A stretch of 64,000 bases of DNA from Cloeon dipterum (lineage: Eukaryota > Arthropoda > Insecta > Ephemeroptera > Baetidae), in contig NC_088789.1 in NCBI RefSeq assembly GCF_949628265.1, positions 1,860,001 through 1,924,000 of the forward strand. The letters run 5' to 3'. Below the pieces are notes generated by a model. The model was given only the letters and a program-made list of their open reading frames with translations, had not been told where the DNA came from and searched no databases. Positions 14,509 to 57,643 of the stretch are shown piece by piece. The position numbers and the translations under genes were made by a program. Positions within the stretch are counted from its first letter, which is position 1, and each line of letters begins with the position of its first letter.

Positions 14509-15604
14509 TCACCACCAAGGATCGGCGGCGTAGGGCTTGGAGACAAGGAAGGGTTTGGGCACGAAGTAGGGGGTGGGCACTCCGTAGGGCACGGCCTTGG
14601 GGACAGGGACGGGGTAGGGGTCAGGGTAGGGCACGGCGTAGGGCTTGGCCACGTGCACCGGCACCTTGACGGGCACGTGCACCGGATAGGGCTTTTCGAC
14701 GGGCACGGCGTAGGGCTTCTCGACGGTGACGGGCACCTTCACGGGCACGTGGACAGGGTAGGGGCGAGGCACCTCGACGGGGTAGGGCGCGGCCACGGCG
14801 TACGGAACCTTCTTCTCCACGGTGTAGGGCACAGGGTGGGGCACGGGGTAGGGCACGTGGTTCGTCACCTCGACCGTGGTCGGCGGCAGGTGCTTGTCGA
14901 AGCCGAAGTACGGGTAGTCGCTTCCGTAGGACAGCGACGAGAACAGACCCCGCTTGTCGCGCTTGTCGTCAACGTCGGCGGCCAGGGCACAGCCCACCAA
15001 AAGGCAAACCTGAGACAATTAAAGTGGATTGAAACAGGGTGAAATTGACAATTATTTGAATGGTTGATCGATAAGCAATTTGTTTTAATCCAAATCGGAA
15101 CTTGCGCTAAGTACAAATTCATTTTTTTTTTCAAAATTTCTCCAACATTTTGAGCGCTTGACCACATTTTCTTGAGAGAAAACAGAAGATCTACCCAACA
15201 GCGTATGAAGCCTTTTTGTTGTGAATTAAAAAAGGATTTTAAGTAAGGAGACTCCTGGTAAGGAGACAGTGCTAACTTTGCAGCCACTTTTCTCAAAAAA
15301 TTATTTTAATTTAGGCTTCAAATGAATCCTAGGGAATGTCTTCGTGCATTCGCAACAACGACTCTCCAGGAATTTGTAGTAACAAATCATGTTTAAATAT
15401 TTTCCGTGTAAAATTTTTTAGAGTTTCGCATATAAAAAGAGCAATTTGATATTTTTATCTCAAAATCAGTGTTGTGAATCATAAAAGATTCGGTTTAGTT
15501 CAACCTTCAAATGTTTGAGCACAAAATTCACCATTAGAGAAGCTATCAAAGTTTAAAATTTGAAAATTCAAAGTGTAATTGGAACTCACCAGGAAGGTCT
15601 TCAT
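14509..15604 (-). CDS. PV-repeat secreted protein (171 aa)
   Basis: Exon 1 (15590-15604) encodes MKTFL with donor GTGAG. Exon 2 (14509-15009) begins VCLLVGCALAADVDD, completing the signal peptide. The sequence DKRDKRG follows at residues 20-26, with the putative cleavage after Arg25. A short SSLSYGSDYPYFGF segment leads to a Val/Pro domain of about 115 residues with units such as KPYPVHVPVKVPV, EKPYAVPV and VPYPVPHPV, ending near PKPFLVSKPYAADPWW. It has no Gly-rich block, so it is one of the simplest members. The 580-base phase-0 intron contains a dispersed repeat. A polyadenylation signal is at 14402-14407. Known analogues are PV-repeat insect cuticular proteins; the matrix role is inferred. 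Confidence 0.85.
15022..15375 (+). repeat. Dispersed repeat of about 350 bp, copy 1
   Basis: Lies in intron 1 of the 14.5 kb gene. It aligns along its length with 16440-16815 and with the reverse complement of 24505-24862: AAGTGGAT..ACAGGG at the start, ATTATTTGAAT, TTGACCACATTTTCTTG, TAAGGAGACAGT, and GGCTTCAA.TGAATCCTA near the end. No terminal inverted repeats or coding potential were seen, so the class is unknown. Confidence 0.75.
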
Positions 15605-15658
15605 GTTGTTTCTCTGCACACACAGTGGTTATGTCATGGTTATCTAATAGACGCTTTG

Positions 15659-15666
15659 TATTTATA
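15659..15666 (-). promoter_or_regulatory. TATA box of the 14.5 kb gene
   Basis: Minus-strand TATAAATA, 55-62 bases upstream of the start codon at 15604. Confidence 0.6.
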
Positions 15667-15669
15667 CTG

Positions 15670-18500: not shown

Positions 18501-18821
18501 CAGTTTATTTGCGAAAATCTCAACACTCTATGGCAGCGATACCATTTTGCTAAAACACAAAAGGCAATCGTGAAAGTACTGAAATCATCGGGGTAACAGT
18601 TCCACCGTTGGTCTCTCACACTTATTGAAATAATATGACAATGCAGCTGAGCGGGAAAAGCGCCGATTATGCAACCGACAGATCCGACTTTCGTAAAATC
18701 GATAAAAAGATAATATCAAACAGAGTGACAAGTAAAAAACCGACCAGAATTTCGTGACTACTAAACAAAGTCGATTCAAAATGATTGGCACGTAAATGGA
18801 GCAGCCTCTTGAATAATATTT

Positions 18822-19528
18822 TTACTTCAGAGACAATTCCTCGGGCGCCAGGGAGATGTCCAGGGGTTCGCTGTGCACAGGCACGGGGTAGTCCTTGATG
18901 TAGGGCACGGGGATGTCCTTGGTCACGGGCACGTGGTACGGGGCGTCGACGGGCACCGGCACCGGCTTGTCGACGTACACGTTGTAGGGCTTGATCACCT
19001 TCACGGGGTAGGGCGCGTCGACGTAGACGGGCACCTTCTTCTTCACCAGCACGGGCACCGGCTTGTCGACGGCGACGGCGAACGGCTTGATCACAGGCAC
19101 GGCGTGCTTCTTGTGGATGGTCAGCGTGGGAGGGTGGAAGTGCTCGGCGAGCAGGGCGAACGGCGACGAGTAGGGCGAGAAGTGGCCGAGGGCGGCTTTC
19201 TTCAGCAGCAGGCTCCTCGCGATGCTGGGGTACAGGCCGGGGTAGAATCCGGGGTGCAGACTAAGTCCGGAGTAGAAGCCTGGCGATGGCATGCTGCTCA
19301 CGGCAGCCAGGGCCGCTAAGAGAGGCTGCAGGGAAAATTAAAATTAGATTAAAAACCATAAAATAGGCTTTTTGTATTTTTTACTCTCTGTAAATTTAAA
19401 AAACAGCCATTCAATATAATTTAAATCGTTTTTGTCCTTGGTTTTAAATGTTTTTAATAAATAAATTAAATTAAAATCTATATCTCAGAGATTGGAAAAT
19501 GCACTTCACTTACAAGCAATAGTTTCAT
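18822..19528 (-). CDS. PV-repeat secreted protein without Gly block or KRG site (172 aa)
   Basis: Exon 1 (19514-19528) encodes MKLLL with donor GTAAGT. Exon 2 (18822-19325), after a 188-base phase-0 intron, continues PLLAALAAVSSMPSP, giving a signal peptide. The mature N-terminal part is Leu/Pro/Phe-rich (FYSGLSLHPGFYPGLYPSIA). The lead-in LTIHKKHAVPV precedes a domain of about 90 residues with units such as DKPVPVLVKKKVPVYV, DAPYPVKV and KDYPVPV, and the tail is acidic (SLAPEELSLK). Unlike most relatives it has no KRG motif and no Gly repeats, and its PV units carry many Lys and Asp. A TATA/initiator pair lies upstream; a polyadenylation signal (18504-18509) is about 310 bases past the stop. 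Confidence 0.82.
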
Positions 19529-19545
19529 GCTGCTCTATCGGATAG

Positions 19546-19582
19546 ACTGATGCATTTTCTAGATATACAAGGGTAATTTATA
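19546..19582 (-). promoter_or_regulatory. TATA box and TCAGT initiator of the 18.8 kb gene
   Basis: Minus-strand TATAAATT at 19582-19575 and TCAGT at 19550-19546, about 32 bases apart, with the start codon at 19528. Confidence 0.65.
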
Positions 19583-20299
19583 GGCGCACATGCAGTTCCC
19601 CTGCTTTTTTCGCGCGAATCTCGCACTTTCTCCGCAGGTCGGCGCATTGCACCTAAGACGCGGTGCAACTTGAGATCGCTACGCAGTGAAACCGAACTGA
19701 CCACTCCATGAACAAACCCTTTTTTGAATTACAGGCAGAAACGTAGAGAGTGTGCCGCTGCGGCGTTTTCTTCTCTTTGCAGATTTGTAAATAAAATCCT
19801 GTTTCGTTTAGATCGTCACTTTCATGCGATGAACGTGAGAGAAAATGCAAATTTCGTCCGGAAAAAAGAGAGCTTACACTTGTTTCCGGAATTGCGTCGT
19901 CAAACTTTTCTCAGCGTGACTTGTGTCCATTTGTACGTGAAGCGTAGGTCAGTGCCGCATGCAGGAAGCCGAAAAGACAATGATGCTCGCTGACCGTTCC
20001 GAGAATCGTCACTGCTTTCACTGGCAGTGAGAATCCCATCGGCTCGCACGTGTGGGAAGCCGGCAAATGCGCGTCTTTTATTACGAAAGATGGACACCTG
20101 CACGGTAATTTTATGCAACTGCATCTCACTTTTGATTCGGAGAAAATAACATTCCGCAGCTAGAACTCATAACTCGTTTTATTGTAAACAATCACAGCAT
20201 TAAATATTCTTATCATACACATCATAGAAATGTTTGAAAATTAGATTTAATTCTCATTGAAGAATAATTAGGGACTTGAGTATGCTGGCACACGACTCG

Positions 20300-22551: not shown

Positions 22552-23223
22552 TCAAAGGGCCTTGAGTCCATGGGCGGTGGGCACGAAGGCGGCGGTGACG
22601 TCGGTGTGCGTGCTGATGGACACGGCCTCCGTGTGGACGGGCACGGCGCGGGGCACCTCGACGGGCACGTGGTTGGGCACCTCGAGGGCCACCGGCCTGG
22701 GCACGGGGTAGGGGACAGCCCTGGGCACCTCGACGGCCACCGGCTTGTGCACCTTGACGTACACGGGACGCGGCACCGGGATGCGCACGTGCTCGATCAC
22801 CTTGACGGGCACAGCACGGGGGATGGGCACAAACACGGGGTGCGGCACCTTCACCGGGTACGCCGAGTGGATGGTGCGCACGCTGTAAGGGTGGAATCCG
22901 CGACGGATCCTTCCACCAGCGGCGACGGCCACCAGAGCCACGAGGGCGACGAGAACCTGCAAGAAAAAATTGAATGGAATTTATCAATAAGATTGTTGAT
23001 TATGTAATTCAACACAATTAGCGATTTTGAACTCATGAAAACAATTTTCTGAAATTTTAAAAACTAATTTTGAATTTTAATTATGTAATAGGAAAGAGCG
23101 GAGTGATTACAAAAAATATTTATGATTCTCAGAAGAATTTAATCAATTTAAAAAAGCTTTATTTACGATTTGAAATATGTGAAAGTTGCAAAAAGCGGAG
23201 CTTGAGTTTACCTGGGACTTCAT
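22552..23223 (-). CDS. PV-repeat secreted protein with RIRRG site (138 aa)
   Basis: Exon 1 (23212-23223) encodes MKSQ and exon 2 (22552-22956) continues VLVALVALVAVAAGG, a strong signal peptide; the intron is phase 0. RIRRG at residues 20-24 fits a furin-type RxRR site and sits where relatives have [DE]KRG. The lead-in YSVRTIHSAYPV opens a compact PV domain of about 80 residues with units such as PHPVFVPIPRAVPV, PRPVYVKVHKPVAV and VPRAVPYPVPRPV. The C-terminal 25 residues are Thr/Ser/Val-rich without PV units. There is no Gly block. TTTATT at 22240-22245 supplies a polyadenylation signal about 307 bases past the stop. Its Arg-Pro-Val units resemble the 26-31 kb genes more than the Lys-Pro-Tyr members. 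Confidence 0.83.
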
Positions 23224-24924: not shown

Positions 24925-25440
24925 CGTGGTGGTTGCCTCTGCTGTATGCGGCAGCCTGCAGACTGCAGACATCTCTCCTTCTTTTCCAAAGCGACACCAC
25001 CTGCACTTCAGAGATGATCTTGGTCCATTTGCTTTTGCCTTCTCCTCTCCGGTGGCCAGAGCAATGAACAGGACGACTACCTATGAATTTGATTTAAATT
25101 ACATGTCCAATATTTTTATCTATTTTTTAAATGTTCTACGAAGATTTGATGGACTCACCAGCAACCTCATCTTCTCAATTGCAGACGTAATGTGATGCCC
25201 TACAGTGGGCTTAGTCTCATATTAATAGGGCTTTGGCTATTTTGAGCCCTTAATATCATTCAAGTGTTTCTGTATGCATGTTATTGTCAAAGCATTTCTC
25301 ATACCGGAGGGATGTGTTCAGCAATGTATATTTTGCTTTGATTTTGCATTCACATTTTGAGAAATTTGCCTTATTACAAATACTAGTCCAATGACCTGAA
25401 AATGCTCGACATGTTTAATGTTACGTGCAAGTTGTGATTA
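24925..25440 (-). pseudogene. Decayed 5' copy of the 26-27.5 kb PV/Gly gene
   Basis: Aligns with 27300-27780, the 5' part and upstream region of the next gene. Exon 1 survives as MRLL with a GTGAG donor (25159-25170); exon 2 begins after a TAG acceptor and reads VVVLFIALATGEEKAKA, close to [18 protein letters not shown] in the parent. After about 20 codons the frame is lost by a one-base deletion relative to the parent, just before the region matching DKKEKRG, and no Gly or PV exons follow. The upstream match continues beyond the former TATA position, where no good TATA remains. This is a partial tandem duplication of the host gene that has decayed. Confidence 0.75.
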
Positions 25441-25943: not shown

Positions 25944-27514
25944 TTAGTGCTTGCCGTAGCTGATGCTAGCGTGGCTGCTGCCGCCGCTGCCGCCGCTGCC
26001 ACCTCCCAGGCTAATAGAGTGTCCGCCTCCCAAGCCAGAGCTGCCTCCGTGGCCACCTCCAAAGCCAGAGCCGCCTCCGAATCCAGAGCCACCTCCGTGG
26101 CCGCCTCCAAATCCAGAGCCACCTCCGAAGCCGGCGCCAGCGCCATGACCTCCGAATCCGCCTCCTCCTAACGAAATAAATTTCATGTTGAATTATTTTT
26201 TATGATGTATATATTTTACCGAAACCTCCAGCGCCTCCTCCGAATCCACCAGCACCTCCGAAACCGCCAGCACCTCCGGCACCACCTCCAAGGGAACCTC
26301 CGAGCTGTCCGACGTTGTTGTTGGTACCGACGACGACAGGAGAGGCGATGACGTAGGGCTGAGGAACGTTGACGGGAACGGCCTTAGGCACGCTCACGGG
26401 GACGGAATAAGGAACGGCGATGGGCACGGGCCTGGAAACGGCGACAGGGACGGGCCTGGGGATGGACACGGGGTAGGGCCTGTCGACCGGCACGGCGTAA
26501 GGACGAGGGATCGTCACCTGAAAGGTTAATTCGTTAAATATTTTCCTTTTGAATAAAAATTGTGCAACTTGCCTGGACAGCTTGGGGAACCTCAATGGGG
26601 ACGGGTCTTGGCACGGCCACGGGGAAGGGCTGGGGCACAGCGATGGGCACCGGCCTGTTGATGGTGATGGCAATGGGCTGGGGAACGTTCACGTGCTGGG
26701 TGGTCGTGATCACGCGGACGGGCGCCTGACCGTTGCCTCCAGCACCACCGGCTCCACCGGCACCTCCGGCTCCACCTGTGAAAATTCCACCTTTGTGAAA
26801 TTCAAACAAAATTGTAGTTCTAATCGCGTATTTGATAAAAAAATAATGTTTCAAAATTCCTTGATGGTGGAATTTACTTTAGCCACTATATTAAAGATGG
26901 GAAAAGTGCAAAAATAAAGATACCAGCGTCATCTCCACCTCCAAAACCACCGGCGCCGCTTCCGCCAAAGCCGCCAGCTCCGCTGCCTCCGAATCCGCCT
27001 CCAGAGCCGCCTCCGTAGCCGCCTCCAGCACCGCCTCCGTAACCGCCTCCAGAGCTGCCTCCGTAGCCTCCTCCAGCGCTGCCGCCGTAGCCGCCTCCGG
27101 AGCTTCCTCCGTAGCTGCCTCCGGCGCTAGCACCATAGCCGCCGTCACCGCCCCCGAATCCGCCGTGTCCGCCGCCGCCTCCTAGGGAGATGCTGCCTCC
27201 AGAGTATCCACCGGCATCGCCGCCGCCACCACCTACAAAATTTAGAAAAATAAATTTTGGAATTAAAAGAGCAAAAAATATGTTACCGATTCCTCCGTGG
27301 TCGCTGCCTCCGCCGAATCCGCCGGCCAGACCCCTCTTCTCCTTTTTGTCCGACGCGGCCGCCTGGACTTCAACGGTGACCTTGGTCTCTTTGGCTTTGG
27401 CCGCCTCCTCTGCGGTGGCCAGAGCAACCAAGAGGACTGCGCATACCTAAAATAGTTGGCAAATAAATTTTTGGATTTTTTTGAATGCTGCGCTTAGCTC
27501 ACCAGGAACCTCAT
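25944..27514 (-). CDS. Gly-rich/PV-repeat/Gly-rich secreted protein, six exons (401 aa)
   Basis: Exons: 27503-27514 (MRFL), 27287-27446, 26924-27232, 26573-26775, 26220-26517 and 25944-26167; the summed length stays in frame. Exon 2 finishes the signal peptide ([12 protein letters not shown]), followed by a Glu/Lys/Ala propeptide-like stretch ending DKKEKRG (residues 37-43). Exon 3 is a block of about 100 residues with repeated GGGYGGS units. Exon 4 opens with GGA repeats and then, with exon 5, encodes the PV domain ([30 protein letters not shown] and similar). Exons 5-6 add a Gly/Phe/His/Ser tail ending [11 protein letters not shown]. Four introns are only 52-148 bases; the one between exons 4 and 5 uses a GC donor. 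Phase-1 introns bound the Gly blocks. Polyadenylation signal at 25713-25718. Confidence 0.8.
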
Positions 27515-29488: not shown

Positions 29489-31780
29489 TTAGTATTTGGA
29501 GGGGGCGCCGTAGCTGCTGGACAACGATCCAGATGAGCTGTAGCTGCCCGATGACAGGGAGGAACCGCCGTGTCCGCTGAGGGCAGGGGTGCCGTAGGAC
29601 GTGGTCAAAGATGGAGAGCCGTACGAGTTGGACAGGGATGATCCGTAGGACGAGTAGGACGGGGATCCGTAGGAGGAGGAGAGGGATGGAGATCCATAAG
29701 AGGAGGAGAGCGACGAGCCTCCGTAAGAGGAGTAAGATGGACTTCCGTACGAGGAGGACAGGGCAGGGGTGCCGTAGGAGGTTGACAGACCAGATCCGTG
29801 GCCAAGGGACGATCCAAGGGATGATCCAAAGGATGAGCCGTAGGATGAGCCGAAGGACGAACCGTACGAGCCAGAGCCGTCAGTGGTCAGGAGGCCGGTG
29901 GTGGGGATGCCGGAGGAGGTGGCCAGGCCATTGCTGCTGGACAGACCTCCGTAGGAGCCACCGCTCAGGGAGGAACCGCCGAAGGAAGATCCACCGTAGG
30001 AGCCACCGCCCAGGGAAGATCCACCGTAGGAGCCACCGCTCAGGGAAGATCCACCGTAGGAGCCACCGCCCAGGGAGGAACCACCGAAGGACGAGCCGAG
30101 GGAAGATCCGCTACCGACGGAGACGGCGATGGGCTGGGGGACGGCCACGGGCTGAGGCACGGGAACGGGCACGGGCCTGGGGACGGCGACGGGGACGGGG
30201 TGGGGCACGGAGACGGGCACTGGCTTGGGCACATGCACGGCCTGGGGAACGGGAACCTGCGGATGCAATTTGATGTTTAGACTTGGCCAATTAATAATCA
30301 AGTTGTAAGCTCACCTTGACGGGGTAAGGGCGGGGCACGGCGACGGGGTAGGGCCTAGGGACGGTGACGGGAACAGCCTGAGGAACGTGGACGGGGTAGG
30401 GACGAGGAACGTTGACGGGGTACGGCTGAGGAACGGAGACGGGCACGGGCTGGTTGACCTGCACGGGGAAGGGCTGGGGCACGGGGTAGGCGCGAGGGAC
30501 GGTCACAGTGTTGACAGTAACGCGACCAACGCCAATACCGGAGCCAAGGCCATTACCAGAAAATCCTGTAAAACATCCAAGCATTAGAAGATATCTCTTA
30601 AAAATTAAATCAAATTTCACATACCTCCCAATCCGTTTCCAAGACCAAGTCCGCCATAGGAGAGACCAGAAAGTCCAGAGAATCCACCGAGTCCCGAAAG
30701 ACCGCCAAGTCCGTTGCCTCCATAGCCATATCCAAGTCCATAAGACGAGCCAAGTCCGTAGCCCGATCCAAGTCCATAGCTAGAGCCGAGTCCGTAGCCC
30801 GATCCAAGTCCGTGGCTTGATCCAAGCCCGAAGCTTGATCCAAGTCCATAATTTGATCCAAGTCCGTAGCTAGAGCCGAGTCCGTAGCTGGATCCCAGGC
30901 TGGACGAGTGGCCTCCAACAGTGGCAGACGTAAGCCCAGAAGAACCATGACTGGCGCCGGAGAGCCCGGAGGAAAGTCCAGAGGAAATCGAGGCGCTGGA
31001 ACCGTAGTTGTTTGCCACGATTCCTCGTTTGTCCTTTTTGGGCTCTTCGACGGCGGCGGCAACCGCGCACAGTGCAATAAGCAAAACTGTGGTCCTCTGC
31101 AGAAAGATGAAAATTATTAATTGTACTCCAATTGCCGAGAGTGGAACACTTAAAGCGGAAAATAATCTCGAAAGCTGAATTGTAAAAATCTGCTAGTCAT
31201 TGTTTATGCGAGAAACGGGTACTTTTACATTTTGCACGCGGACACATCGTAAGCAAAGAATACAAAGGGAGATCGCATTTCTGAAAGTGACCGCCCAAGT
31301 GAAATTGCGCTCTGCACGTAGGTGTACGATTGAATCCGGGGCGCGCGCTTAAATTCTCTTTACTTTCTGTTTCACTCAACGCCGCGAGATGAGAATTATA
31401 TTTAAATGCTTTTTGAAAGTTCAATTCTTTGCATTAGAGGAAATGAATCAAGTATTTAACTTTGATTTTCTAATATTTTCCTCATTTTAAATTTTTACAA
31501 AATACAAATTTTGAATAGCAAAAATTTGAACCAGTAATTTAAGGAAAATCTGGACTAGATTATTTCTTTTTTTAAAATGTCAACTTTGTATAGAGACACA
31601 AAAAACAAGAGCTGACAATGAATAAAAAATCAATGATGCCTGTCGTTTGTATTGAATCAACGAATCGATAATGGATTTAGTTGTTCAAACGCTAAATTCG
31701 CGTCAGCTTTCCGGATAACTGAGCGAACACGAACGCTATAATAGCAAATTGAGCGGAACCCAACTCACCGTGGTCTTCAT
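29489..31780 (-). CDS. Gly/Ser/Tyr-rich and PV-repeat secreted protein, four exons (500 aa)
   Basis: Exons: 31769-31780 (MKTT), 30625-31096, 30315-30565 and 29489-30256; phases are consistent (0, 1, 0). Exon 2 completes the signal peptide (RTTVLLIALCAVAAAVEEP), followed by KKDKRG at residues 24-29 and a long block of SSYGLGSSYGLG repeats. Exon 3 starts with a few Gly units, then VNTVTVPRAYPV and a PV domain with RPYPV and VPQAVPV units. Exon 4 continues the PV domain ([20 protein letters not shown]) and then becomes a block of about 190 residues with [14 protein letters not shown] and SSSYGSPSYSS units. It is the largest member and is organised like the 26-27.5 kb gene but with Ser-rich tails. 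Polyadenylation signal at 29413-29418. Confidence 0.82.
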
Positions 31781-36110: not shown

Positions 36111-38028
36111 CTACTCCACGAAGATCTCATCAAGAGCGACCAGGGCGTGTTTAGGCTTGATATTGCTCACGTTGCCCTGTTTGGCGACGGCCATTCTGAT
36201 GCGTTCCTGCAGCATGTGGAATTCTTTGGTGTGCGTCTCCTTGCGCATTTCCATCTCCTCGGCCTTGAGGAAGGCGTAAGGCAGCAGGTCGGTGGTCAGG
36301 GGCGCCTCGACGAGCATGGCCACCTCCTGGTCTTGGGGGTCGCAGCTGTCCAGCTTGTCCAGCGTGTCCCAGTTCTGTTCGCAAGCCTCGCACTTGCACT
36401 CGAGCCCTCCAGACTGGAAACAGGCATCCTGGAGGAGGCTCTGGCGCAGGGCCCGACCTATTTTCAGGAAGTCAACTTCAGGGTAGAGGCACTGGGTTAC
36501 CAGACTGCCAGCAGTGATCAGACGAGTCGCCTGGATTTGAGTGGGTATTAATATCAGGTTTGTTATAAATTAATAAATAAATTGCCTGCATGATCAAGCG
36601 TCGACCAAGGCTGAAGGTGGTGGTGTTTGGCGAGCAGGCGTGGCTCACCAGAGCCGTGACAGGGTAGACCCCAAGTCCGACTGCACTGTTTGAGTCTTCG
36701 CCCAGGTAGCCGCCAAAGGGAACCACTTGGTCGATGCTGAACGTCGCAGCAGACAACCTCGTCACGAGTTCACCCAGGGAAAGCACCAGCTGGTCGAAAT
36801 CTGGTGACTGCTCCTCGTAGCCGAGTATCCTGGCCCACAGAGTGAAGAACATTGTCAGCATGGCCTTGTTTTCAGACAGGATAGGACGTTGCAGGAAAAG
36901 CGAATTTGGGTCGCTCGAGAGCAGCGGCTTCGTGTAGCCGAGTTGGTCGTCCCTCTGGCACTTGGTGATGTCGTGAGCCAGCTTTAGTTTCATCAAGTTG
37001 AGCATGTTGAACTGGACGCCGGCCGATTGCAGAGCTGGCATCAGGGCGCACTCTTTGGAGTGCAAATCCTTGGCTTCAGCCTTGCACTTTTCGCTGCAGT
37101 ACACCTCCTTAGAGTTTTGTTACATAATTTGGATCTGATTAATTTTTTGAAACAAATCTTACCCATTGGCACGTGTCGCACGGAATGAGGTTTAAGGCGT
37201 GATGCATGCAGGAGCAGCATCTGTCCAGCTGATCAGGGTTGAGGAACGAGACCAGTGGCTCCTCAGATATGAGAATTTCGCCTGCCTTGATCTCTCTGGT
37301 GGCCACGAAGCGGTGGATCTTGTTCTCCGAGTCGACCTCCAGCTTCAGAGCATCGCTGACGCACGGAACGAGCGGATTAGCGGTGCTTACGGCCAGTTTG
37401 CCGCAGTCAGTGACCGTCATTCTGGCCGCCAGTTCGCAAATTTCGCGCTCAGTGTCTCCAGAGTCAGCCTCCTGCTTGGTTGGCTGCGCCGCTTTGGCCA
37501 TGTATTTGAGGCACAGATCGAGCTTGTTCTTCAGCTTGATTTGTGACTCAGGGTCCAATGTGCAGGCCAAAGCAGCATGCACGTCGCTGGCACAGGCGTT
37601 GAACTGACGCATTCGCAACAGGATTTCCGACCTGACGGTCAGGGCCTTGGCCCTGAGGCCTTCCTGGTCGCTTGGGATGTGGGCCAGACCTTTGTTCACT
37701 TTCGCCAAAGCGAATTCCAAGTCGTGAGTGAGCATGGAAATTCTGTAAAAATTTAGATATCAAATAATTTATTTTGTTGAACGGTTTCAACAAACCTTGC
37801 ACTTTCCAAGTACTCGGTCTCGACGCATTCCGGAATCTTCTTATTCTGCACCTTCAGCTCAGGAAGTTGGAAATTCCTGAGGATGGCTTTGACGGATTCG
37901 ACGCGCTCTCTGTCCTCTGGAATCGCGTTCAACTCGTTCATCAGCTCCTCGCCTGACTTTCCCTCCTGGACATTGTCCAAGTGCTGAAGAAGCTTGTCTG
38001 AAACTTCCAAAATCAGATATTCGGCCAT
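36111..38028 (-). CDS. SET and MYND domain protein, SMYD4-like (584 aa)
   Basis: Exons: 37796-38028, 37163-37742, 36586-37107 and 36111-36530, in frame throughout. Residues 1-190 look helical and TPR-like (LEFALAKVNKGLAHIPSDQE). The split SET begins at about 219-240 (ATREIKAGEILISEEPL) and is interrupted by a MYND zinc finger whose ligands are all present: C253, C256, C266, C269, C275, C279, H287 and C291. The second SET half has SHACSPN (426-432), and a post-SET Cys cluster ECKCEAC has C490, C492 and C495. This layout is that of SMYD4-type lysine methyltransferases, which act in cytosol and nucleus. Several SAM or catalytic motif positions differ from consensus (see findings). The last intron has a GC donor. 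No TATA; polyadenylation signal 19 bases past the stop. Unrelated to the surrounding secreted proteins. Confidence 0.85.
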
Positions 38029-38029
38029 C

Positions 38030-41000
38030 CTTCTAAATTCTTTCAGAGGAATTGACCGTTCAAGCTGCTTTTGTTTGGTTTTCAGCTATTCTTTGCTGGC
38101 TGATTGTTGAAAAAAAATTTTTCAACTGTCAAAATTACTCAAAAATTGATGATGGAATGCAACAATAATTTTTTTAGTTTTTATTATGCTAGGTGTACAT
38201 ACCAGCACCAGCATTCTGAGCGACTTATTTGATCATTATTTGTAACACATACTTTCCAAATTAATATTCCGGTGTACAATTAATTAATTATTGCGTGCAC
38301 AAATTAAAAATGAGCTAATTATGACGCAAAGGTTCTTCGAGTATATGCATAATAAAATCCAACAGCCCTTCACGCCATCAACACAAGACAGTTTTTTATT
38401 TGTCCATAAATTATCACCTTGTTCGTATTTTAGGAAAATAATATTTTACGCCCTAAATGGAAAGAGCAAATTCCTTTATTTATTTATTTTTTTATGATGC
38501 GTTGTCGGGTTTCAGGTGTTATTTTGCTTATGAATAAAAAGTCAAATCTTTTCCGTGTTGAGTTTTATTTTGCATGAAATTCTTTTTTAAGGACATCAAG
38601 TTATTTAATCATACATCATATGCACTGGCATCTGAGAGTTTCAGGTTTTGTAAAATGCAGAAGAAGTTTGAAAGTAAAAGTAAGTGGTTACTGCAGGCAA
38701 AATGAAATGCATTAAATCAATGCCGCCAGACCAAAATGCTTTCATGGAACAAAAAGGAAATACTTTACCTTCCCTTTGCGCACATTGTATAGATGCACGA
38801 TTAATTATGGAAGCCATCTGTTTGATGATCTCCATTGCCAACGGCTGCAGTGGAAAGATAAATTGCCTCAATTTGGCTAATTTCCCCACGGGCGTAATTT
38901 TTGCATGCTCATTCTGCAATAAATTTCTTCCGACGCGCGTAGCAAAACCCGTTTGCATGCAATGAGAACAGTTTTGCTTAATGACTACGTGTCATCGGCA
39001 GTTTTATTTACTCTCGTGTTATCCAACATCTCCATTGTGTCAAAACACAGTCGGAGAAATTCTCCCGGTAAATCATCAAATTTCAATCTCCACCAATAAC
39101 AAATTCATCGATCCCTCGCCCGAGGATGAAATAAAAAAAATCGTTTTCCTGGGTGTGAAACCGAGTGTATATACTTTTTTGTCTGGAGGCGTTGTTTTAC
39201 CTCTGTGGCTTCGCATTTAAATTAAAAGGCTTTTGTAATTATGCCGTTGTACGCTGCTCGCCTTACTCGAGTTGATTATATTCTAGATCGAGTCTTTGCG
39301 CACCCAGGCACATGAGTGGATGTGGCTTCCTGCTCAGCTCGTTTCGGGCCAGACAACATGTCTTATTGTGCGATCATCGCGCCGCAATATATTAATCGCG
39401 CCGAGATGCGGTGCTTCCTGCTGGACCAAAAAGCAAAAAGCGGCTCCTCCTTTCACTGCAGTCGGCGCAGATAAACTGGCAGTTTTATACATTGAAGTCC
39501 GATCCATGTGCTAGTCCTTTTTCTTATTCGTTTTTACACAGCACGAGACTTTCCTTCTGTTGTTTTGAGTACAGTCACGGCTACAAATTAAATGTGGCCG
39601 CTTTCTTCGAATTTTGTCTGCCGATTCACGAGAGCCGAGACCCTCTAATTTGATGCAATTTACGCGAGACAATTGCCGTTTAATTGAATAGCGTGTACGA
39701 CCTATCGCTCCTTTTCATTCAAATTAGCGGAGAGCAAAAGGCGCTGCCACACCAACCACCATCCATAATGCCCACCTTGCTCTTATCTCAGATCGCGGAG
39801 AGCAAACAAGCTCATGTCGCTCGCTGCGGTTGTGTGATTTTCACTTTGCATGTGTAATTTATGCGCAAAGTTGTTACTTTGAATCGGAATATTGTTTCTA
39901 ATTTATTGAGCGGTTTTCAATATTCCGATTTTGTACCAACACTTGTTCCGATTCCCAATGCGACCGCGAGATCGTGCATGCGGCATCAAAGCTGAGAAAG
40001 TTCAACCAGATGAAACCCGATGCTGCTTTTGCTCCGCATTTTATTGGCACGAGTCCACATTGTGAATTTGATAGATTGCATACTGGTAAGCCCCAAATAA
40101 AATCAAAACTTGTTATAAATTAATCACTTTCGATTGAACTCCATCATAAATCAATCTGTGCGTGGGAATCTCGCACTTTATTCACACTCGACGCGTTAAA
40201 AAGCGTGTTGAACCGGAATTTCAGCGGTGCTGGTGAATTATAATTCTCCTTTCAGTGCGATTTTTGCAGCGCTCTCATTATCCCTAATCACTCTTCATTC
40301 ACTGACGCTATAGTTGCTGACATGAAAATTCGATCACTTCCCCTGCTAATGTGTACAGTTCATTGTTCTCGATAACAATGGAATCAAACAATGCGGCGTG
40401 AACTTTAGCCTCTTCTCTGAAATTAAAAACTTCCGTGTCACCGAAACTACCAGATAAAAATACAATTGGATCAATCATCACATCAATATTTCCAAGAGCA
40501 AATCTGGCTAAATATTGAAGATATTATAATGATTTCATTGAAGGTCGTTCATGGGAGGAAAAGTTGTCGTTTTATTAATGCCCCCGCTAGTTTCAATTTT
40601 CAACTGCAGCCCTATTTCGTGGAGAATGAAATTTTAGATCATAAAGTAAAATTTAAAAAGATTAAAATATTAAATATACTGAAGTATTCATAACAATGAT
40701 TCATGGCACACACTCGCTTTCCGTAATGTATATTTAAAGTTTTACTATATGATCTTAAAATACATATACAAATCGATTTGACATGAAATATGGCTGCAGT
40801 TGACCACGAAAACTAGTAGGCATTAATATAACGATGCATTTTTAATGAGGAATGTCCGATATTAATGATGTACACTTTTATGATACCCAAAAATTAGAAA
40901 CACACTCGTTGCCTATTATCTTCATTTATATGAACTTTGCTCAAAATTTAAATTTGAAAGGATGAATTTACTAATTTAAAATTTATATTTAAATTGGGCA

Positions 41001-42999: not shown

Positions 43000-44569
43000 T
43001 CAACCCTTGTAGGTGGATGAGTATTTGCTGGAATCGTCAGCGCCGGTTGCTCCCACGGAGCTCAAGTTGGAGTGGTCCTGCTGGCTCGAGCTGGACGGAC
43101 TGGACAGGCTGCTGGACGATCCGTACGAGTCGCTCGAGTGGCTGGATGGTGCGAGCGAAGATGACGAGCCGTAGGAGGACGGGGAAATCGCTTGGGTATT
43201 GCTGTAATAACGCATCAGAATCGACCTTTTTCATTCGGATTAGAATCGTTGCGAAAGCGGCATGTGGATATCGCAAAAGCAGCCAGAATTTTACAACTAC
43301 GTTTACTTCTAATTGAAAAATACATTTATTTTTGAACTTGGTGCCCCAGACAGGTGGTAAAAAAAACTATCTAAATTAAATTGGTTTTAAAATTACCTGA
43401 CAGCATCGAGCGTATTAGAGTGATCTCCAGATCCTGCTCCAAGTCCTGCAGAGGATCCAAAGTCCCCGCCGCTTCCGTGGTTGTATGCGCTCGCGTAGCT
43501 GCCGCTTCCAAGTCCACCGTAGCTGGAGCCCAGGTCGCTCTGGCCTGCTCCAGCGGCGCCGTAAGAGCTTCCAAGGCCGCCGTATGAGCCACCGAGTCCT
43601 CCATAAGAGCCGCCTAGTCCACCGTAAGAGCTTCCGAGTCCACCGTACGATCCACCAAAGGAGCCGCCAAGTCCGCCGTGAGAGCCGCCAAGTCCGCCGC
43701 TAGAGCCGCCAAAGGAGTTGCCGAGTCCGCCGTAGCTTCCGCCAAAGCCGCCGTCGTGTCCTCCTCCGAAGCCTCCTCCGAATCCACCGCCGAGCCCGGC
43801 GTGTCCTCCCAGTCCTCCGCCGAATCCTCCGAAACCGCCGAAAGAGCCGCCGTGGCCTCCGAAAGAGCCTCCGTGTCCTCCGACGGGCACGGGAACGGGC
43901 ACGGGCACCCTAATAGGGTGGGGCACCGGCACGGCGACGGGCCTGGGCACGTGCACGGGCACGGGGTGGGGCACGGGGACGGCGACAGGCCGGGGAATGT
44001 GGACAGGGTAGGGCCTAGGCACGGCCACGGGCACGGGATGTGGGACAGGCACGGGCACGGCGTGCGGCACGGACACTCTGTAGGGCTGGGGCACCGGCAC
44101 GGGCACCGACTTGGTCACGGTCACCGGGTACGGCTGGGGCACGGGGTACGGCTTGGGCACGTACACCGTCTTCACCTGCGTGTGCCACGGTTGAACGCCT
44201 CTCTTTTCCGTTTTGCGCACCACCAAAGTGGTCTTGGGGCTCTCCGTGGAGGCGGCCAACGCCAGCCAGCACGCAGCCACCATCAGCGCTATCTGAAACG
44301 ACAAAATAAAATAATTTTAAAGCCCTTCTCTATACAGAATATTATTCTGAATGCATGTATTTAATTTTTATAGCTCAAGGCGTGTCAACAGAACAGGTTT
44401 GAGAGTAAAATTATAAATGCGTAATAAATACGTGTAGAATGTAGCAAGATAAATAATTAAAATAAATTCGATTTCATATATACATAGCTTTATACCACAA
44501 TGGTGATTTAGTTTCAGTTTGTTTAAAATTAGAAAAGGTTTAAAATGTACTTACCAGAGACTTGTTCAT
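43000..44569 (-). CDS. PV-repeat plus Gly/Tyr-rich secreted protein, three exons (370 aa)
   Basis: Exons: 44555-44569 (MNKSL), 43397-44292 and 43000-43201; introns are phase 0 and phase 2. Exon 2 completes the signal peptide (IALMVAACWLALAAS) and gives VVRKTEKRG at residues 29-37. Next comes the lead-in QVKTVYVPKPYPV and a PV domain of about 120 residues (PHPVPVAVPRPYPV, PRPVAVPVPHPVPVHV). A block of about 150 residues of GGSFGG and SSYGGLGG repeats follows. Exon 3 adds a Ser-rich tail of about 67 residues (SSLSSPSSSSQQ) ending STYKG. Domain order is the reverse of the 47 and 56 kb members: PV first, Gly second. Two possible polyadenylation signals lie at 42855-42880. Confidence 0.82.
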
Positions 44570-46993: not shown

Positions 46994-48007
46994 TTAATGC
47001 TTCCATCCGCCGCCTCCGCTCTTGCCACCGTAGCCGCCTCCATAGCCGCCTCCGTGTCCACCTCCGTATCCGCCTCCGTGTCCACCGCCGCCTCCGTAAG
47101 ACTTCTGGATGACGATGGGGTGGGGCACGGGGATGTGGACGGGCTTGGGCACCTCAATGGGCACGTACTTGGGCACGGTGATCTTGACGGCCTTGGGCAC
47201 CGGCACGGCGTAAGGTTGGGGCACGTGCACGGCGTACGGCTTCTCGATGAAGATGGGCACAGGCTTGGGAACGTGCACGGTCTTGGGCACCGCGTAGGGT
47301 ACGGGGTAGGGCTTGGGCACTTGCACGGGCACAGGGTAGGGCACGTGCTTGATCACTTGCACGGGAACGGGGTGTGGCACCCGGATGATCTTGACTTCGC
47401 CGTGCCCGCCGCCCTGGCCGCCGCCATATCCGCCTCCGTATCCGCCTCCGCTGCCTCCGAATCCGCCTCCGTGGCCGCCGCCGAATCCGCCTCCGTAGCC
47501 TCCGAGTCCCTGGCCGCCGAAGCTGCCGCCTCCAAATCCACCGTGTCCACCAAAGCCTCCGCCGAAGCCGCCGCCGAGACCGCCGCCGCCGTGGGTGTTG
47601 AAGGAAGCAAGGGCCTCCGAGTGGCCGCCTCCGGTCGCGCCGCCAATGTCTCCTTGGCCGCCGAACGATTCCTTGAGGCTGCCTCCGCCGGTGCCGCCGC
47701 CGCCGCCGCCGCCGTGGCCGCCTGCGGAGGACAAGCTGCTCGAGACCCCGTGGTCGCCGAAGTCGGCGCCGGTGTAGCTGTTCTGTCCGTAGCCGCCGCC
47801 GTAGCCGTTGCCCTCGGAGCTGGCGCCGTAGTTGCTGGCCACGATGCCCCGCTTGTCCGGCTGGTGGTCATCGTCCTCCGTCTCGGAGGCCGCCACCACC
47901 AAGCAGGCGGCGAGGAGCAAGCAGGCGGTCTGGAAAATAAATTCAAATTTAAATGAAAATCGAATTGAAAGCAGAGGAGCTGCTTGTACCTGGATGGTTC
48001 GAGCCAT
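46994..48007 (-). CDS. Gly-rich/PV-repeat/Gly-tail secreted protein (317 aa)
   Basis: Exon 1 (47990-48007) encodes MARTIQ; exon 2 (46994-47929) continues TACLLLAACLVVAAS, completing the signal peptide, then an acidic stretch ETEDDDHQPDKRG with KRG at 32-34. About 140 residues of Gly-rich sequence ([13 protein letters not shown], with a GHG-rich middle) precede the lead-in EVKIIRVPHPVPV and a PV domain of about 95 residues (KPYPVPYAVPKTVHVPKPV, EKPYAVHVPQPYAVPV). A short GGGHGGGYGG tail ends GGGGWKH. The phase-0 intron is 60 bases with no stop in frame, so an unspliced transcript would stay open with 20 extra residues. The spliced form is chosen because it gives a compact signal peptide. Polyadenylation signal at 46919-46924. 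Confidence 0.84.
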   Translation of the reverse strand: MARTIQVQAAPLLSIRFSFKFEFIFQTACLLLAACLVVAASETEDDDHQPDKRGIVASNYGASSEGNGYGGGYGQNSYTGADFGDHGVSSSLSSAGGHGGGGGGGTGGGSLKESFGGQGDIGGATGGGHSEALASFNTHGGGGLGGGFGGGFGGHGGFGGGSFGGQGLGGYGGGFGGGHGGGFGGSGGGYGGGYGGGQGGGHGEVKIIRVPHPVPVQVIKHVPYPVPVQVPKPYPVPYAVPKTVHVPKPVPIFIEKPYAVHVPQPYAVPVPKAVKITVPKYVPIEVPKPVHIPVPHPIVIQKSYGGGGGHGGGYGGGHGGGYGGGYGGKSGGGGWKH

Positions 48008-49879: not shown

Positions 49880-50486
49880 ATGAAAATCTTGGTGCATCCA
49901 CTGCAAACCAACGTTTCTAGCATCATTCTAATCTCTATATTTTGCACCACAGGTATGCACTTTGGCCGTTCTGGCCGTCGCTCTGGCCGCTGAGAAGCAG
50001 CCTGAGCTTAGGGCAAACTTATATTCCGGTGGCCTAGGAGGCGGACACGGTGGCGGCAGCTCTGGCGGCGGACTCGGCGGCGGACTCGGCGGCGGACACG
50101 GAGGTGACGGCGGCGGCCACGGAGGCGGCAAACTGGCCAGTGGAGCCATTGGCGGAGACGGCGGTGAAGGCCTCGACGACGGATCCGGCCACGCCAAGGT
50201 ACAGTTTCTTAACTTATTATTTATATTTTTTCCTGATTTAAATTTGGAATATATTCAGGTCCACGGCATCACCATCCACAAGGTGATCAAGATCCCCATC
50301 AACCAGCCGGTTCCCTATCCCGTGATCCGCAAGATCCCGGTCCACATCCCCCACCCCGTTCCCGTGCCAGTTGACAAGCCCTACCCGGTGCACGTGCCTG
50401 TGAAGGTGCCCCTGCATCACACCGAGCTCTACCCCGTCTCTAAGCCCGTTCCCGTTCCTGTCCACGTGCCCGTGAAGACGACCTGA
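49880..50486 (+). CDS. Shortened inverted copy of the 53 kb Gly/PV gene (161 aa)
   Basis: The only plus-strand member. Exons: 49880-49891 (MKIL), 49953-50198 and 50259-50486. Exon 2 starts VCTLAVLAVALAAEKQPE, as in the 53 kb gene, then jumps to LRANLYSGG: an in-frame loss of 11 codons removed the segment that holds KRGIDYGG in the parent. The Gly block (GGGHGGDGGGHGGG) and the acidic EGLDDGSGHAK follow. Exon 3 encodes VHGITIHKVIKIPI and a short PV domain ending KPVPVPVHVPVKTT, without the long PV half and Gly tail of the parent. Both introns align with those of the parent. The first donor (GTGCAT) is weaker than the parent's GTACGT. The frame is open and AATAAA lies at 50616-50621, so it may be expressed, but decay is possible. 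Confidence 0.72.
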
Positions 50487-52895: not shown

Positions 52896-53071
52896 CAGTT
52901 TATTTGTAACGATGTTCACAGCAGTGAGAGTAATTCGTAACAAACATATTTTTGGTGTTTTAAGAAATGCAAAAATCTGATTTCTACATTCGAGTCTTAC
53001 AGTTAAAATAGGGAACTTTAGTTTGACGGGGGCGGCACGCCTCCCCCAGTATGGGCCCTGCCAGCGGGCGC

Positions 53072-53990
53072 TTATTTGCCCTTCCAGCCGCCGTCTCCGC
53101 CGCTGCTGTATCCGCCTCCGTAGCTGGAGCCTTGTCCGCCGCCGAAGCCTCCGTAGCTGCCGCCGCCGCCTCCGAAGCTGGAGCCGCTGTCGGATCCGTG
53201 TCCGCCGGAGGGCGCCTTGTCCAGACTGACCACGATCGGAACGGCCTTGTGGATGGGCACGGGCTTGTGCACCGGGAACGGTTGGGGCTTCTGCACGGGC
53301 ACGGCCACGGGCTTCTTGACGTAGACGGGAACGTCGTGGTGCAGGGGCACCTTGACGGGCACGTGCACCGGGTAGGGCACGGGCCGCTCGATGGGGTAGG
53401 GAACGGGCTTCTCCACGTGCACGGGGTACGGCCTGGGGATCTGCACGTGGTAGGGCTTGTCAACTGGCACGGGAACGGGATGGGGGATGTGGACCGGGAT
53501 CCTGCGGATCACGGGATAGGGCACCGGCTGGTGGATGGGGATCTTGATCACCTTGTGGATGGTGATGCCGTGGACCTGAATATATTCAAAATTTAAATCA
53601 GGAAAAATTTAAATAATAATGTTAGAAACTGTACCTTGGCGTGTCCGGATCCGTCGTCGAGGCCTTCACCGCCGTCTCCGCCGATGGCTCCACCGGCCAG
53701 TTCGCCGCCTCCGTGGCCGCCGCCGTCACCTCCGTGTCCGCCGCCGAGCCCGCCGCCACCGTGGCCGCCGCCGGAGCTGCCGCCACCGTGTCCGCCTCCT
53801 AGGCCACCGGAATAGTCTGCCCCGAGCTCGGCGGCGCCGCCATAGTCGATTCCGCGCTTTTCAGGCTGCTTCTCAGCGGCCAGAGCGACGGCCAGAACGG
53901 CCAAAGTGCATACCTGTGGTGCGAAATGTAAAGATTAGAACGGGATGCTGCGGAATCGTGGCTTCGCAGCGGACGTACCAAGATTCTCAT
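53072..53990 (-). CDS. Gly-rich/PV-repeat/Gly-tail secreted protein (264 aa)
   Basis: Exons: 53979-53990 (MRIL), 53635-53913 and 53072-53575; introns of 65 and 59 bases, both phase 0. The signal peptide ends in LAVALAA, followed by EKQPEKRG (KRG at 23-25) and a Gly/His/Asp block (GGGHGGDGGGHGGG) ending LDDGSGHAK. Exon 3 opens with VHGITIHKVIKIPI and encodes a PV domain of about 115 residues (DKPYHVQIPRPYPVHVEKPV, PYPVHVPVKVPL, KKPVAVPVQKP). It finishes with a Gly/Ser/Tyr tail ending GGDGGWKGK. The exon 2/3 boundary separates the Gly block from the PV domain cleanly. It is the probable parent of the 49.9 kb gene. Polyadenylation signal at 52899-52904. Confidence 0.84.
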
Positions 53991-54043
53991 GATCCTCTGT
54001 ATGGTTTGGACGGACTGGATGGTCAGTTGGTGCAATGTCTGAG

Positions 54044-54052
54044 CTTTTTATA
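54044..54052 (-). promoter_or_regulatory. TATA box of the 53 kb gene
   Basis: Minus-strand TATAAAAAG, 54-62 bases upstream of the start codon at 53990. Confidence 0.6.
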
Positions 54053-54059
54053 TCCACTA

Positions 54060-55860
54060 CTTCCTTTGTCGCCCTTTCCACCGGCGCAATTTGCGCGCAG
54101 AAAGTCTGCATCCATGCATCCAGCCATCCGTCAATCCGCGGCAGCTGCACTGATTCAGCACCGCGAGGAGAGATGCATGCTCATCAGCCTGTGGCGCGCC
54201 AAAATTGCTTCTATGCCGCGCACCGAGCTCTTAATTGAACACAGAGCAATTCAATTTTATTCATTAGCCTGCCAAGTCAGTAATTTAATAATTAGATTAT
54301 CACAAGAAACTCAATATAGAGCGGATATAGCTTTTATCTTTATCAAGATCAGCCTAATATATATAATTTAATCATGCGATCTCCGTGAATTTAAAATGCA
54401 AAGGATTGTGACTTGCACGTCTATCAGAGGCAACCCAAAATTTGGAAAGCAACATTACGAATCAGTAATGCAAACACTTAGTTGTAATTAGAGAGTTCTA
54501 GAGAGGAACATAGTGTTTAGTGTTTTGCTATCAACAATTTATTTATGGAAATAGTTGGGATAAATTTTTTGTTTTAATCACTACAATTAAATATTTACTG
54601 TTTATTTCATATAAGTTTACTTATAATTTTTTATATCATTGTAACTCGAGAAAACTACATGACTGTGTAAAATAAATTTAAGTGTATTTAATTAGCATAA
54701 TATGTTATATATTAATTGGACTTTCCGCCATGTTCATTACTAATTTGCAAGATATTTGTTTGAAATGCATAGCTACTTTTATGTAAATCTCTTAATATCA
54801 AATTGAATAGAGAAAAGGTGTTGACTGCCACTGTTGTCTATTAATTAATTAAAGTGATTCTTTGAACTACTATAAATCTGATAAAGCTTCTTAAATCATG
54901 TTTTTACATTAAATTTGTTGCAATATTCAATCAGTAAAAAATAATTCTAACGTTGATAGAAAAAGTTATTAACGAATGAAAACGGGATAATGAAGCAAAA
55001 AATATAGTTTTCTCTCCGTGGATATGATTTACGTGCCGTCATCTATCGTGCAAATGATCCACTTGTCAGACAGAAGTGGCTTTCTTTTGTAGCCGACGTT
55101 CCATTTAACATCAGTGAAAACGTACAAATTTTTCACAGCTTCGCAGCGGGATTTAGCAATTTATAAATTTTCTATAGATTTGTGGGTACTTCTGCTCAAT
55201 TTTTCTCCAAAATTCTTGTGCATCCCATAGAGGACTCAAGCATCTCGCTGTGCAAAGTCACACTCATGACAATGAATGCAATGAGTAAGCATTTTATTTT
55301 AGATATGCGTGCAATGCACTCTAGAAGTTTATTCCATTTTTAAATTTTGATATAGGATTTCCCAACGTGTTGCAGAGTAAAAGTGATCTTAAAATAAAAT
55401 ATTTAACTTGCCAGAGACTGATATGTATATAAAATTTTCGTGAATCAAAGAAAACAATTAACTTCGAGACTGAAACTATGATTAATGAGAATTAATGAGA
55501 ACTGGCGGGGCCCTGATTTTCCTGATATACATATTTTTACAAGATTTGCATTGTTTTCTGTAGTAATACAACGTTTTATTAAGCATCTAGCAATATCTGT
55601 GGCGAGACTTGTGAAAAACATCAAATTCAAAAGTGTACTGCAAGAAAATTGATTTGGAGAGAAGAAGCAAAAATTTGTAAAAATTGATATTTTACAGATT
55701 AAAAATATTTAACACAATTATTTGCCGTATAATTTTTTTGCTACGATTTAGAGATCCCAAATTTCAAATTTTAGCCATTTGCGGTTGTGAAAAAAGGATT
55801 TATCTTGGATATTTTCTGCGGAGGTGAAATTAAAAAGTGTTGCTTCGGTATAAATTATAA
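54060..55860. other. Intergenic DNA
   Basis: Very AT-rich; nothing recognised. Confidence 0.4.
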
Positions 55861-55953
55861 AAACTTTATTCTACACACAATTATATAAACAATCAGAATT
55901 TCAGATCACATGTATTCAACAAAAATGAATTTGAGAGCGAGACCATTATTTAC

Positions 55954-57643
55954 TTAGTAAGAGCCATAGCCTCCCAGGTCGTAGGAGTCGTGGTGGCCTC
56001 CCTTGACGTAGACGGGCACGGGCTTGGCCACAGGGTAGGGCTGGGCGACGGGCACCTTCACGGGCACGTGCACGGGGTAGGGCACGGGCTTAGCCACGGG
56101 GTAGGGCACGGGGTGGTGGACGGGCACCTTGTAGGGAACGTGCACGGGGTAGGGGACGGGCTTCTCCACGGGGTAGGGCACCAGCTTCTCGACGGGCACG
56201 GGAACCTTGACGGGCACGTGCACGGGGTAGGGCTTGTCGACGGGAACGGCCACAGGGTGGGGCACGGCAACGGGCACCCTCTTCACCACGGGAACGGGAT
56301 AGGGGTGGGGAACGGGCACGCCGACCTCGCGGTGGATGGTGATTCCGGAAATGCGCTCCTGGCGGCCGTAGCCCAGACCGGCACCGCCGAGTCCAGCGCC
56401 TCCGAGTCCAGCACCGCCGAGTCCAGCGCCTCCGAGTCCACCACCGAGTCCAGAGCCGAGTCCGAGACCGGAGCCGTATCCGTAGCTGGAGCCGTAGCCG
56501 CCGGAGAGACCAAGTCCGCTGCTGAGACCGAGACCGCTTCCATGGCTGAGGCCGCTTCCGAGGCCGAGGCCGCTTCCACTTCCGTAGCCAAGGCCGCCTC
56601 CGCTTCCGTAGCCGAGGCCGCTGCTGTAGCCACCACCGAGTCCTCCGAGGCTGGATCCGTATCCGTAGCCCAGACCGGCCAGGCCTCGCTTGTCTGTCTT
56701 CTTCTCGTCCTTGACGTCGTCAGCAAATACTGCTGAAGCAAGGAGCAGAACGCAGACCTGAAATGCGAGAAGGAATACAATTAAATATTTCAATTCAGTC
56801 GAGTGTGCATGAACCTGCCAATTAGGCTATTTGTGAACAATAAAAAGCGGCTGATAGAATCCTAAGTCGTCGTTAAACATAAAGACCCGGCTTTGTGAGA
56901 GTCATTCTTGTTATTTGCTGTCTAACAGCAACGCCCATTGTGAACTATACACGAATGACGGCGGCGGTCCTTTCTTTTCCAACACCTACACGACTCGTTT
57001 CCGGTGATCTGAATGCACGCATTACGAAAGTGAACAGCATCATTTATCCATTCACCTGTTTTAAAATCGACTGATAAGAGCGGCGTGCAGTTAGCGCAGA
57101 AGTGAGCATTAATAGATTATAAAAATAGATCTAATAAATGTAATTATGCAATAAATCGAGCAGATTACTTTGATAGACGCGGCCAATGACCAATTAATTT
57201 AATCGTCGGCATGTTTCCTTCTGGCTGACAGTGCGAGCGAGAGGAGAAATTGCCGCTGCCGGACCAGGTGGGCCCGCAAGGCAAATTATATGGTGTTGCC
57301 ATTTAGAATAAAAACGTTTGCGTGTGACATCACTTTAATGTATTATGCGGGTATTATGCAATGAAAGAAAATGAAAAAAAGTCGAACACACGTGAAATCG
57401 CTTCCTAATGGAACTGGATTACCGCAACACCTTTCGCATAGAGATTTAGAGTCAAAATTTTCACAGTTAGGAAATTTAAGAGCAAATATCAGCAATTTGC
57501 ATTTTTCTTATAATTTAAAATAAAAATATAATTGCAAATATTTCAAAATTGAAATTTGCCGAGTAAATTACGAATTGAAAAAGCCAGTTGAAATTATTTG
57601 TAAATTTCACTGGCTGGTTGTGAGTACTCACCAGGGACTTCAT
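55954..57643 (-). CDS. Gly/Leu/Tyr-rich then PV-repeat secreted protein (271 aa)
   Basis: Exon 1 (57632-57643) encodes MKSL; exon 2 (55954-56757) continues VCVLLLASAVFADD after an 874-base phase-0 intron. The propeptide-like stretch DVKDEKKTDKRG places KRG at 27-29. About 110 residues of GLGYGSG, GLGLGSG and GGAGLGGAG repeats follow, then ERISGITIHREVGVPV and a PV domain of about 115 residues built on KPYPVHVPVKVPV and KPVPYPVHVP units, with a short SYDLGGYGSY tail. The GITIH lead-in is shared with the 50 and 53 kb genes. The order here is Gly first, PV second, with almost no Gly tail. Polyadenylation signal at 55865-55870. The TATA box 70 bases above the ATG supports the distant first exon. 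Confidence 0.84.

Follow-up and report, generated by a model that had tools for sequence, protein, structure and literature searches.

A locally duplicated array of probable CPLCP/Vajk-type cuticle protein genes, with a two-residue phase and an eight-residue register in its proline/valine blocks

The stretch of DNA analyzed here, referred to as the window, covers 64,000 nucleotides of contig C4 (C4:1860001-1924000) and contains ten genes, A to J, for proteins with a hydrophobic leader and a block rich in proline and valine (the PV block). The locus is best read as an array of structural cuticle protein genes of the CPLCP/Vajk type that arose by local duplication, a reading to which a probability of about three in four is given. 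The family is of a known kind and it is clearly expanded; the new detail found here is that the PV blocks combine a two-residue phase with an eight-residue superperiod, and this strict repeat rule is worth testing.

A sequence-only reading of the window had proposed ten PV-repeat genes, nine of them on one strand, each with a Val-Pro repeat domain. PV-repeat open reading frames (ORFs) are indeed found by six-frame reading at all ten places, and the spliced models run exactly from 14509 (the stop of the first gene) to 57643 (the ATG of the last), with nine genes on the minus strand and one, gene H, on the plus strand. In the six frames of the window, 22 ORFs have a 40-residue stretch with at least 50% P+V, compared with none in each of 20 dinucleotide-preserving shuffles; these 22 include antisense and other-frame echoes and are not a gene count. 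When the flanks are scanned for PV genes (C4:1800001-2004000; coordinates are given relative to the window), the array is seen to reach about 92.8 kb, past the window end, with three further genes (L, M and N) and one broken copy. The 13 array genes discussed below are A-J together with L, M and N. The genome searched comprises 190.1 Mb in ten contigs, five of 33-43 Mb and five of less than 1 Mb, and one additional PV gene is located at C4:25.37 Mb, 23.4 Mb from the array. Two PV protein queries against the whole genome give matches with E <0.01 only in the array or at one other place; these queries score the best candidates only, so that the match counts are lower bounds, and among the candidates scored no further convincing PV locus is found, the next matches, on contig C1, having E values of 0.01 or worse.

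The rhythm of the PV blocks is seen in 13 blocks that were selected purely on P+V density. A single residue phase holds 343 of the 346 prolines, and the opposite phase holds 352 of the 366 valines. This phase bias is significant gene by gene (p from 8e-7 to 1.2e-19), with a purity in every gene of at least 94% for P and at least 92% for V, and Pro-Pro pairs with an odd spacing of 15 residues or less occur at 0-4% of the shuffle expectation. The recurrence of the residues other than P and V is 0.142 at lag 8, 0.180 at lag 16 and 0.181 at lag 24, compared with 0.040 at lag 12, and the pooled identity is 0.423, 0.446 and 0.454 at lags 8, 16 and 24, respectively, with lag 12 (0.308) being like lags 4, 6 and 10 (0.308-0.314). 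Among the even lags from 2 to 14, lag 8 is the highest in 12 of the 13 array genes (tied with lag 14 in gene F), and the best octad frame is approximately V-P-[K/R/H]-P-[V/Y]-P-[V/Y]-[P/H/A]. The earlier suggestion that the Val-Pro units alternate "as in extended or beta-type fibres" agrees with the strict two-residue alternation, as a fact of sequence. Its further wording, that hydrophobic and basic residues alternate, is right in that Lys/Arg is found mainly on the valine side (89 of 126 residues), at one octad position, but the phases are mixed, one being mostly P/A/H/K/T/E and the other V/Y/K/I/R/H; the valine phase also carries 72 of the 82 tyrosines. Among the literature titles listed for these terms, none names an eight-residue CPLCP register, which is a weak negative at the level of titles and passages.

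The PV blocks are 48-119 residues long, with 21-31% P and 25-33% V, and they are embedded in a shared gene architecture. A hydrophobic N-terminal leader, judged by eye, is present in all 13 models, including all ten window genes, for which a signal peptide had been claimed. It is followed by a short segment with a dibasic KR|G or RR|G site at its end in eight of the ten window genes and in 11 of the 13 array genes, the exceptions being B and H. The model search was designed around a tiny first exon, and in all 13 array models the first exon has 4-6 codons, so that independent support from the TATA motif matters. A strict TATA motif is found within 160 nt before the ATG in 11 of the 13 genes, each time 41-77 nt away, and 17% of 4000 random 160-nt stretches have one; genes F and M have only TATA variants upstream. 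The leader, the KR/RR|G site and the TATA motif co-occur in most array members. Outside the PV block the Gly content is 28-47% in seven window genes and 5-8% in A, B and C; the Gly-rich blocks reported earlier therefore exist in seven of the ten genes and not in these three.

The assignment of these proteins to the CPLCP/Vajk family, which is made by fit to published descriptions and is very probably correct, agrees with the sequence-only reading, in which an expanded array of secreted-type PV-repeat genes of the Vajk kind had been suggested; the gene models bear this out as well. The published statements used here come from passages of the sources. CPLCPs are described as proline-rich, with the proline in PV and PY pairs, and as containing much V, K and Y (PMC7497268, PMC10138643, PMC12426002); three conserved motifs are also mentioned in print for the family. 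In each of the 13 array genes and in the singleton there are 9-23 PV pairs and 0-14 PY pairs (none in N, two each in C and H), in line with the described proline pairs. The PV blocks contain 0-11% Y and 1-12% K, which is consistent with the V/K/Y enrichment, weakly so for D (1% K), E (2% K) and N (0% Y). The likeness, which is by description only, comprises the putative secreted-type leader, the proline mainly as PV/PY and the richness in V, K and Y. The array differs from the sets of other insects in that nearly all members are in one place and in that there are more of them than the 2 of A. pernyi, 6 of B. mori, 7 of M. mediator, 4 of Drosophila and 2 of A. mellifera given in those passages, although the Anopheles names, which reach at least CPLCP12, temper this comparison of numbers. 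Drosophila Vajk-4 is the ortholog of CPLCP3 and has a role in cuticle barrier formation (PMC8667434); Anopheles CPLCPs were recovered solely from the unextractable final pellet (PMC5395146); in Bombyx scales CPLCP12 and 11 are within the top four ranked proteins at day P-6, CPLCP12 being 21st at P-8 (PMC8062583); and a dragonfly CPLCP is a member of a nymph-type gene set and responds to Kr-h1 RNA interference (PMC8892354). CPG proteins share the Gly-rich flanks of the GGYGG/GGxGG type that are seen by eye in most array members, but, as far as the passages state, CPGs are reported from Lepidoptera only and are defined by their Gly repeats, and several Bombyx CPGs have been reassigned to CPLCP.

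The gene models are listed below. For D, G, H and I the automatic models were partly wrong, and the splice choices were hand-checked instead.
Gene A, 14509..15604, minus strand: exons 15590-15604 and 14509-15009; 171 aa; leader, KR|G, PV block aa 46-164, no Gly block; TATA 62 nt before the ATG.
Gene B, 18822..19528, minus strand: exons 19514-19528 and 18822-19325; 172 aa; PV block aa 80-159, without KR|G and without Gly block; TATA 54 nt before the ATG.
Gene C, 22552..23223, minus strand: exons 23212-23223 and 22552-22956; 138 aa; RR|G, PV block aa 33-117, without Gly block; TATA 74-76 nt before the chosen ATG.
Gene D, 25944..27514, minus strand: six exons, 27503-27514, 27287-27446, 26924-27232, 26573-26775, 26220-26517 and 25944-26167; 401 aa; Gly-PV-Gly; several weak splice sites, placed partly by hand; TATA 55 nt before the ATG.
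Gene E, 29489..31780, minus strand: four exons, 31769-31780, 30625-31096, 30315-30565 and 29489-30256; 500 aa; Ser/Gly-PV-Ser/Gly; TATA 51-53 nt before the ATG.
Gene F, 43393..44569, minus strand: exons 44555-44569 and 43393-44292; 304 aa; PV block aa 42-150, then a Gly-rich block; no strict TATA, variant TATTTAA upstream.
Gene G, 46994..48007, minus strand: exons 47990-48007 and 46994-47929; 317 aa; Gly-PV-Gly; first-intron donor weak, hand-placed; TATA 41-43 nt before the ATG.
Gene H, 49880..50486, plus strand: 161 aa; inverted, truncated copy of gene I, probably decaying; TATA 56 nt before the ATG.
Gene I, 53072..53990, minus strand: exons 53979-53990, 53635-53913 and 53072-53575; 264 aa; Gly-PV-Gly; TATA 62 nt before the ATG.
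Gene J, 55954..57643, minus strand: exons 57632-57643 and 55954-56757; 271 aa; Gly-rich block, then PV block aa 144-259; TATA 77 nt before the ATG.
Broken copy, 67646-67140, beyond the window: related to genes H and I.
Gene L, 70525-68930, minus strand, beyond the window: array gene model.
Gene M, 86758-85824, minus strand, beyond the window: array gene model, with a variant TATA only.
Gene N, 92800-91691, minus strand, beyond the window: array gene model.

For gene C an alternative first exon (25159-25170) scores slightly higher; it was set aside for the nearer exon, which has the TATA motif. The PV block of gene D is interrupted by a GC-AG intron (CAG|GCAAGT) at 26518-26572 (minus strand). 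Gene H matches gene I at 94% of 375 aligned bases but lacks both the KR|G site and the C-terminal region, and its first donor is weak; on this comparison, H is a truncated copy of its neighbor that is probably decaying.

Several observations weigh against the reading of the locus as an array of functional CPLCP/Vajk-type genes with a common repeat rule. No Pfam family is matched at cut-off in 15 PV sequences (the ten of the window and five further ones, several of them single exons), and the sub-threshold matches are of the composition type (Cornifin, E 0.025, for C; keratin head, 0.0011, and GRP, 0.0026, for L; keratin head, 0.0061, for N). Gene H is the sole array gene without a lag-8 peak, and lags 14 and 22 show smaller, unexplained peaks. 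The ratio of nonsynonymous to synonymous substitution rates (dN/dS) is 0.29-1.51 across eight pairs of paralogues, computed for whole proteins and for PV blocks, and exceeds 1 for J-M. Finally, two AlphaFold runs fail to give a global fold and show hardly any paired strand: for the 13 aligned PV segments the mean predicted local distance difference test score (pLDDT) is 70 and the predicted template modeling score (pTM) is 0.14, with strand confined to residues 7-12 and 22-27 of the 129, and for four aligned near full-length chains these scores are 44 and 0.12, with no strand. These models suggest that the isolated PV chain is extended or disordered, and they say nothing firm on assemblies. 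In the same 15 PV sequences Chitin_bind_4 (PF00379, CPR/R&R) is not matched, and this R&R chitin-binding family has 94 matches elsewhere in the genome. A search of the PDB with the sequence of one PV block gives chance-level matches only (E 0.15 and 0.36).

The best explanation of these features, and a likely one, is that the genes encode secreted, cross-linkable structural proteins in which the PV block would be an extended amphipathic strand. It is proposed that the proteins would be secreted by epidermal cells at molting and would be cleaved at the predicted dibasic site by a convertase; a literature search for furin-type cleavage of cuticle proteins listed a single title, on nematodes. The PV block would stay extended; its prolines would line one face, and V/Y together with roughly one basic residue in each octad would line the opposite face. 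In a beta strand, the NH groups of successive residues face alternate edges, and because of this the confinement of the prolines to one phase would make one strand edge poor in donors: alternate prolines would remove hydrogen donors from one edge only of a beta-type strand. Chains could then pair along the remaining edge, without stacking into wide sheets. This idea of a one-edged strand rests on stereochemistry, and the pairing step itself is tentative and rather doubtful. Tyr, His and Lys would cross-link the proteins into insoluble cuticle, the Gly blocks would confer compliance, and the number of genes would permit stage- or region-specific mixtures. More speculative still, and on balance improbable, is the proposal that the PV block is a distinct fiber module, in which the octad register would set the points where Tyr and Lys/Arg of paired one-edged chains meet, giving cross-links at fixed spacing and preventing amyloid-type stacking.

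A mechanism without pairing comes close to even odds, although it stays somewhat below them, and it leaves the family assignment as it is. In this view the PV block would act as a rigid rod or spacer of X-Pro units, extended and unpaired, which would form no sheets and would keep the cross-linking blocks apart. The X-Pro repeats of TonB are known to form such an extended, unpaired rod, and it is established stereochemistry that Pro at every second residue disfavors ordinary sheets. The AlphaFold result for the PV core, in which the block-mean pLDDT is 64-83 yet the pTM is only 0.14 and there is almost no DSSP strand, is also in agreement with a rod. A rod, however, has no need of the eight-residue register, nor of the sorting of Tyr and Lys/Arg to the valine phase.

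It is unlikely that these are proteins of some other secreted material, such as an egg coat, silk or adhesive. Many secreted materials could be built from proteins with a leader, PV blocks and low-complexity Gly/Tyr/Ser blocks, but the composition fits CPLCP as described in the passages cited above, CPLCPs have been recovered elsewhere from cuticle and scales, and several genes to the left of the array resemble, by eye, other low-complexity cuticle genes.

Far less credible is the idea, already in print for VPV-rich insect proteins, that the articulin/alveolin/epiplastin superfamily has animal members and that the array proteins are among them. The VPV-rich repeats of these protist proteins are a true likeness: 11 of the 13 array genes have more than three VPV modules, the threshold of PMC6212826, and C and G have three; insect epiplastin-like sequences are reported in the same source, and PMC8062583 cites a resemblance between mosquito CPLCPs and articulins. 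The periodicity speaks against the idea: articulins and alveolins are described as having a 12-residue repeat (PMC4303705), whereas the array genes peak at lag 8 and stay at baseline at lag 12. The insect epiplastin-like VPV genes are, moreover, apparently single copy per genome (PMC6212826), and the PV sequences scanned have no Pfam match at cut-off. Articulins and alveolins are also membrane-skeleton proteins, whereas the array proteins have a leader peptide, yet ciliate plateins, according to the passages matched, carry signal peptides too. The weakest alternative, in which a large part of the array would be low-complexity sequence without function whose reading frames stay open through composition, is very improbable. 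In its favor, gene H looks degraded, the copy at 67.1-67.6 kb is broken and dN/dS is near or above 0.8 in several pairs; against it, the leader, the KR/RR|G site and the TATA motif recur jointly in most members, P and V keep to their phases with a purity of at least 94% and at least 92%, respectively, in every gene, and each of the 20 shuffles has 0 PV-dense ORFs.

Other genes lie within and around the array. Three near-alike low-complexity secreted-type ORFs (AAPVAYGYGHSPLAYNSYGRVYGN), cuticle-like by eye, adjoin it at 1587-1913 (minus strand) and, left of the window, at -625 to -299 and -4025 to -3678; one of the three was scanned and matches no Pfam family at cut-off. A Gly/Tyr-rich secreted-type ORF at 3650-4117 (minus strand) has an SYAN-HSV motif in common with these three. 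Further left of the window, at -5951 to -5544 (minus strand), is an ORF with AAPAVYHAPA repeats, the leader of which ends in DKR|G, so that the dibasic site is common to the PV genes and a non-PV cuticle-like neighbor. Pro/Ala-rich, probably coding ORFs are present at 8061-9311 (minus strand), and the one scanned (8808-9311) is without a Pfam match. Within the array, at 36114-38085 (minus strand), there is a multi-exon gene without PV repeats, which is SMYD-like (MYND/SET) by eye; Pfam gives only a sub-threshold MYND match (E 0.28) for the three ORFs scanned. Similar ORF pieces (SEHTNRFxRVELG) at 8490-8732 (plus strand) and, beyond the window, at 74558-74770 (plus strand) suggest a dispersed repeat, and an inverted pair of similar ORFs (FHQMRQILCVYLRVAGFVTQLL) is found to the right of the array, also beyond the window, at 102301-102699 (minus strand) and 109241-109762 (plus strand).

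The host is probably an insect, as is suggested by five matches to the odorant-receptor family, which is not known outside insects. A baetid mayfly, Cloeon dipterum, is a tentative guess: 23 exon matches to chemosensory proteins are in keeping with it (16 CSP genes are given for that species), whereas an exon-wise search for odorant-binding proteins, which is of low sensitivity, gives 1 match against the 167 OBP genes reported there. Tribolium is rejected as host; the USP/RXR exon scores 1.40 bits per aligned residue against the Tribolium protein (2nxx) and 1.71 against the Bovicola protein (4ozr). The locus provides an ordered set of putative CPLCP/Vajk-type genes at a single place in a chromosome-scale genome. 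The two-residue phase and the eight-residue register offer a testable structural model for a cuticle family that is known as "low-complexity", and, if the host is a mayfly, the array would have a bearing on the age of this family in winged insects.

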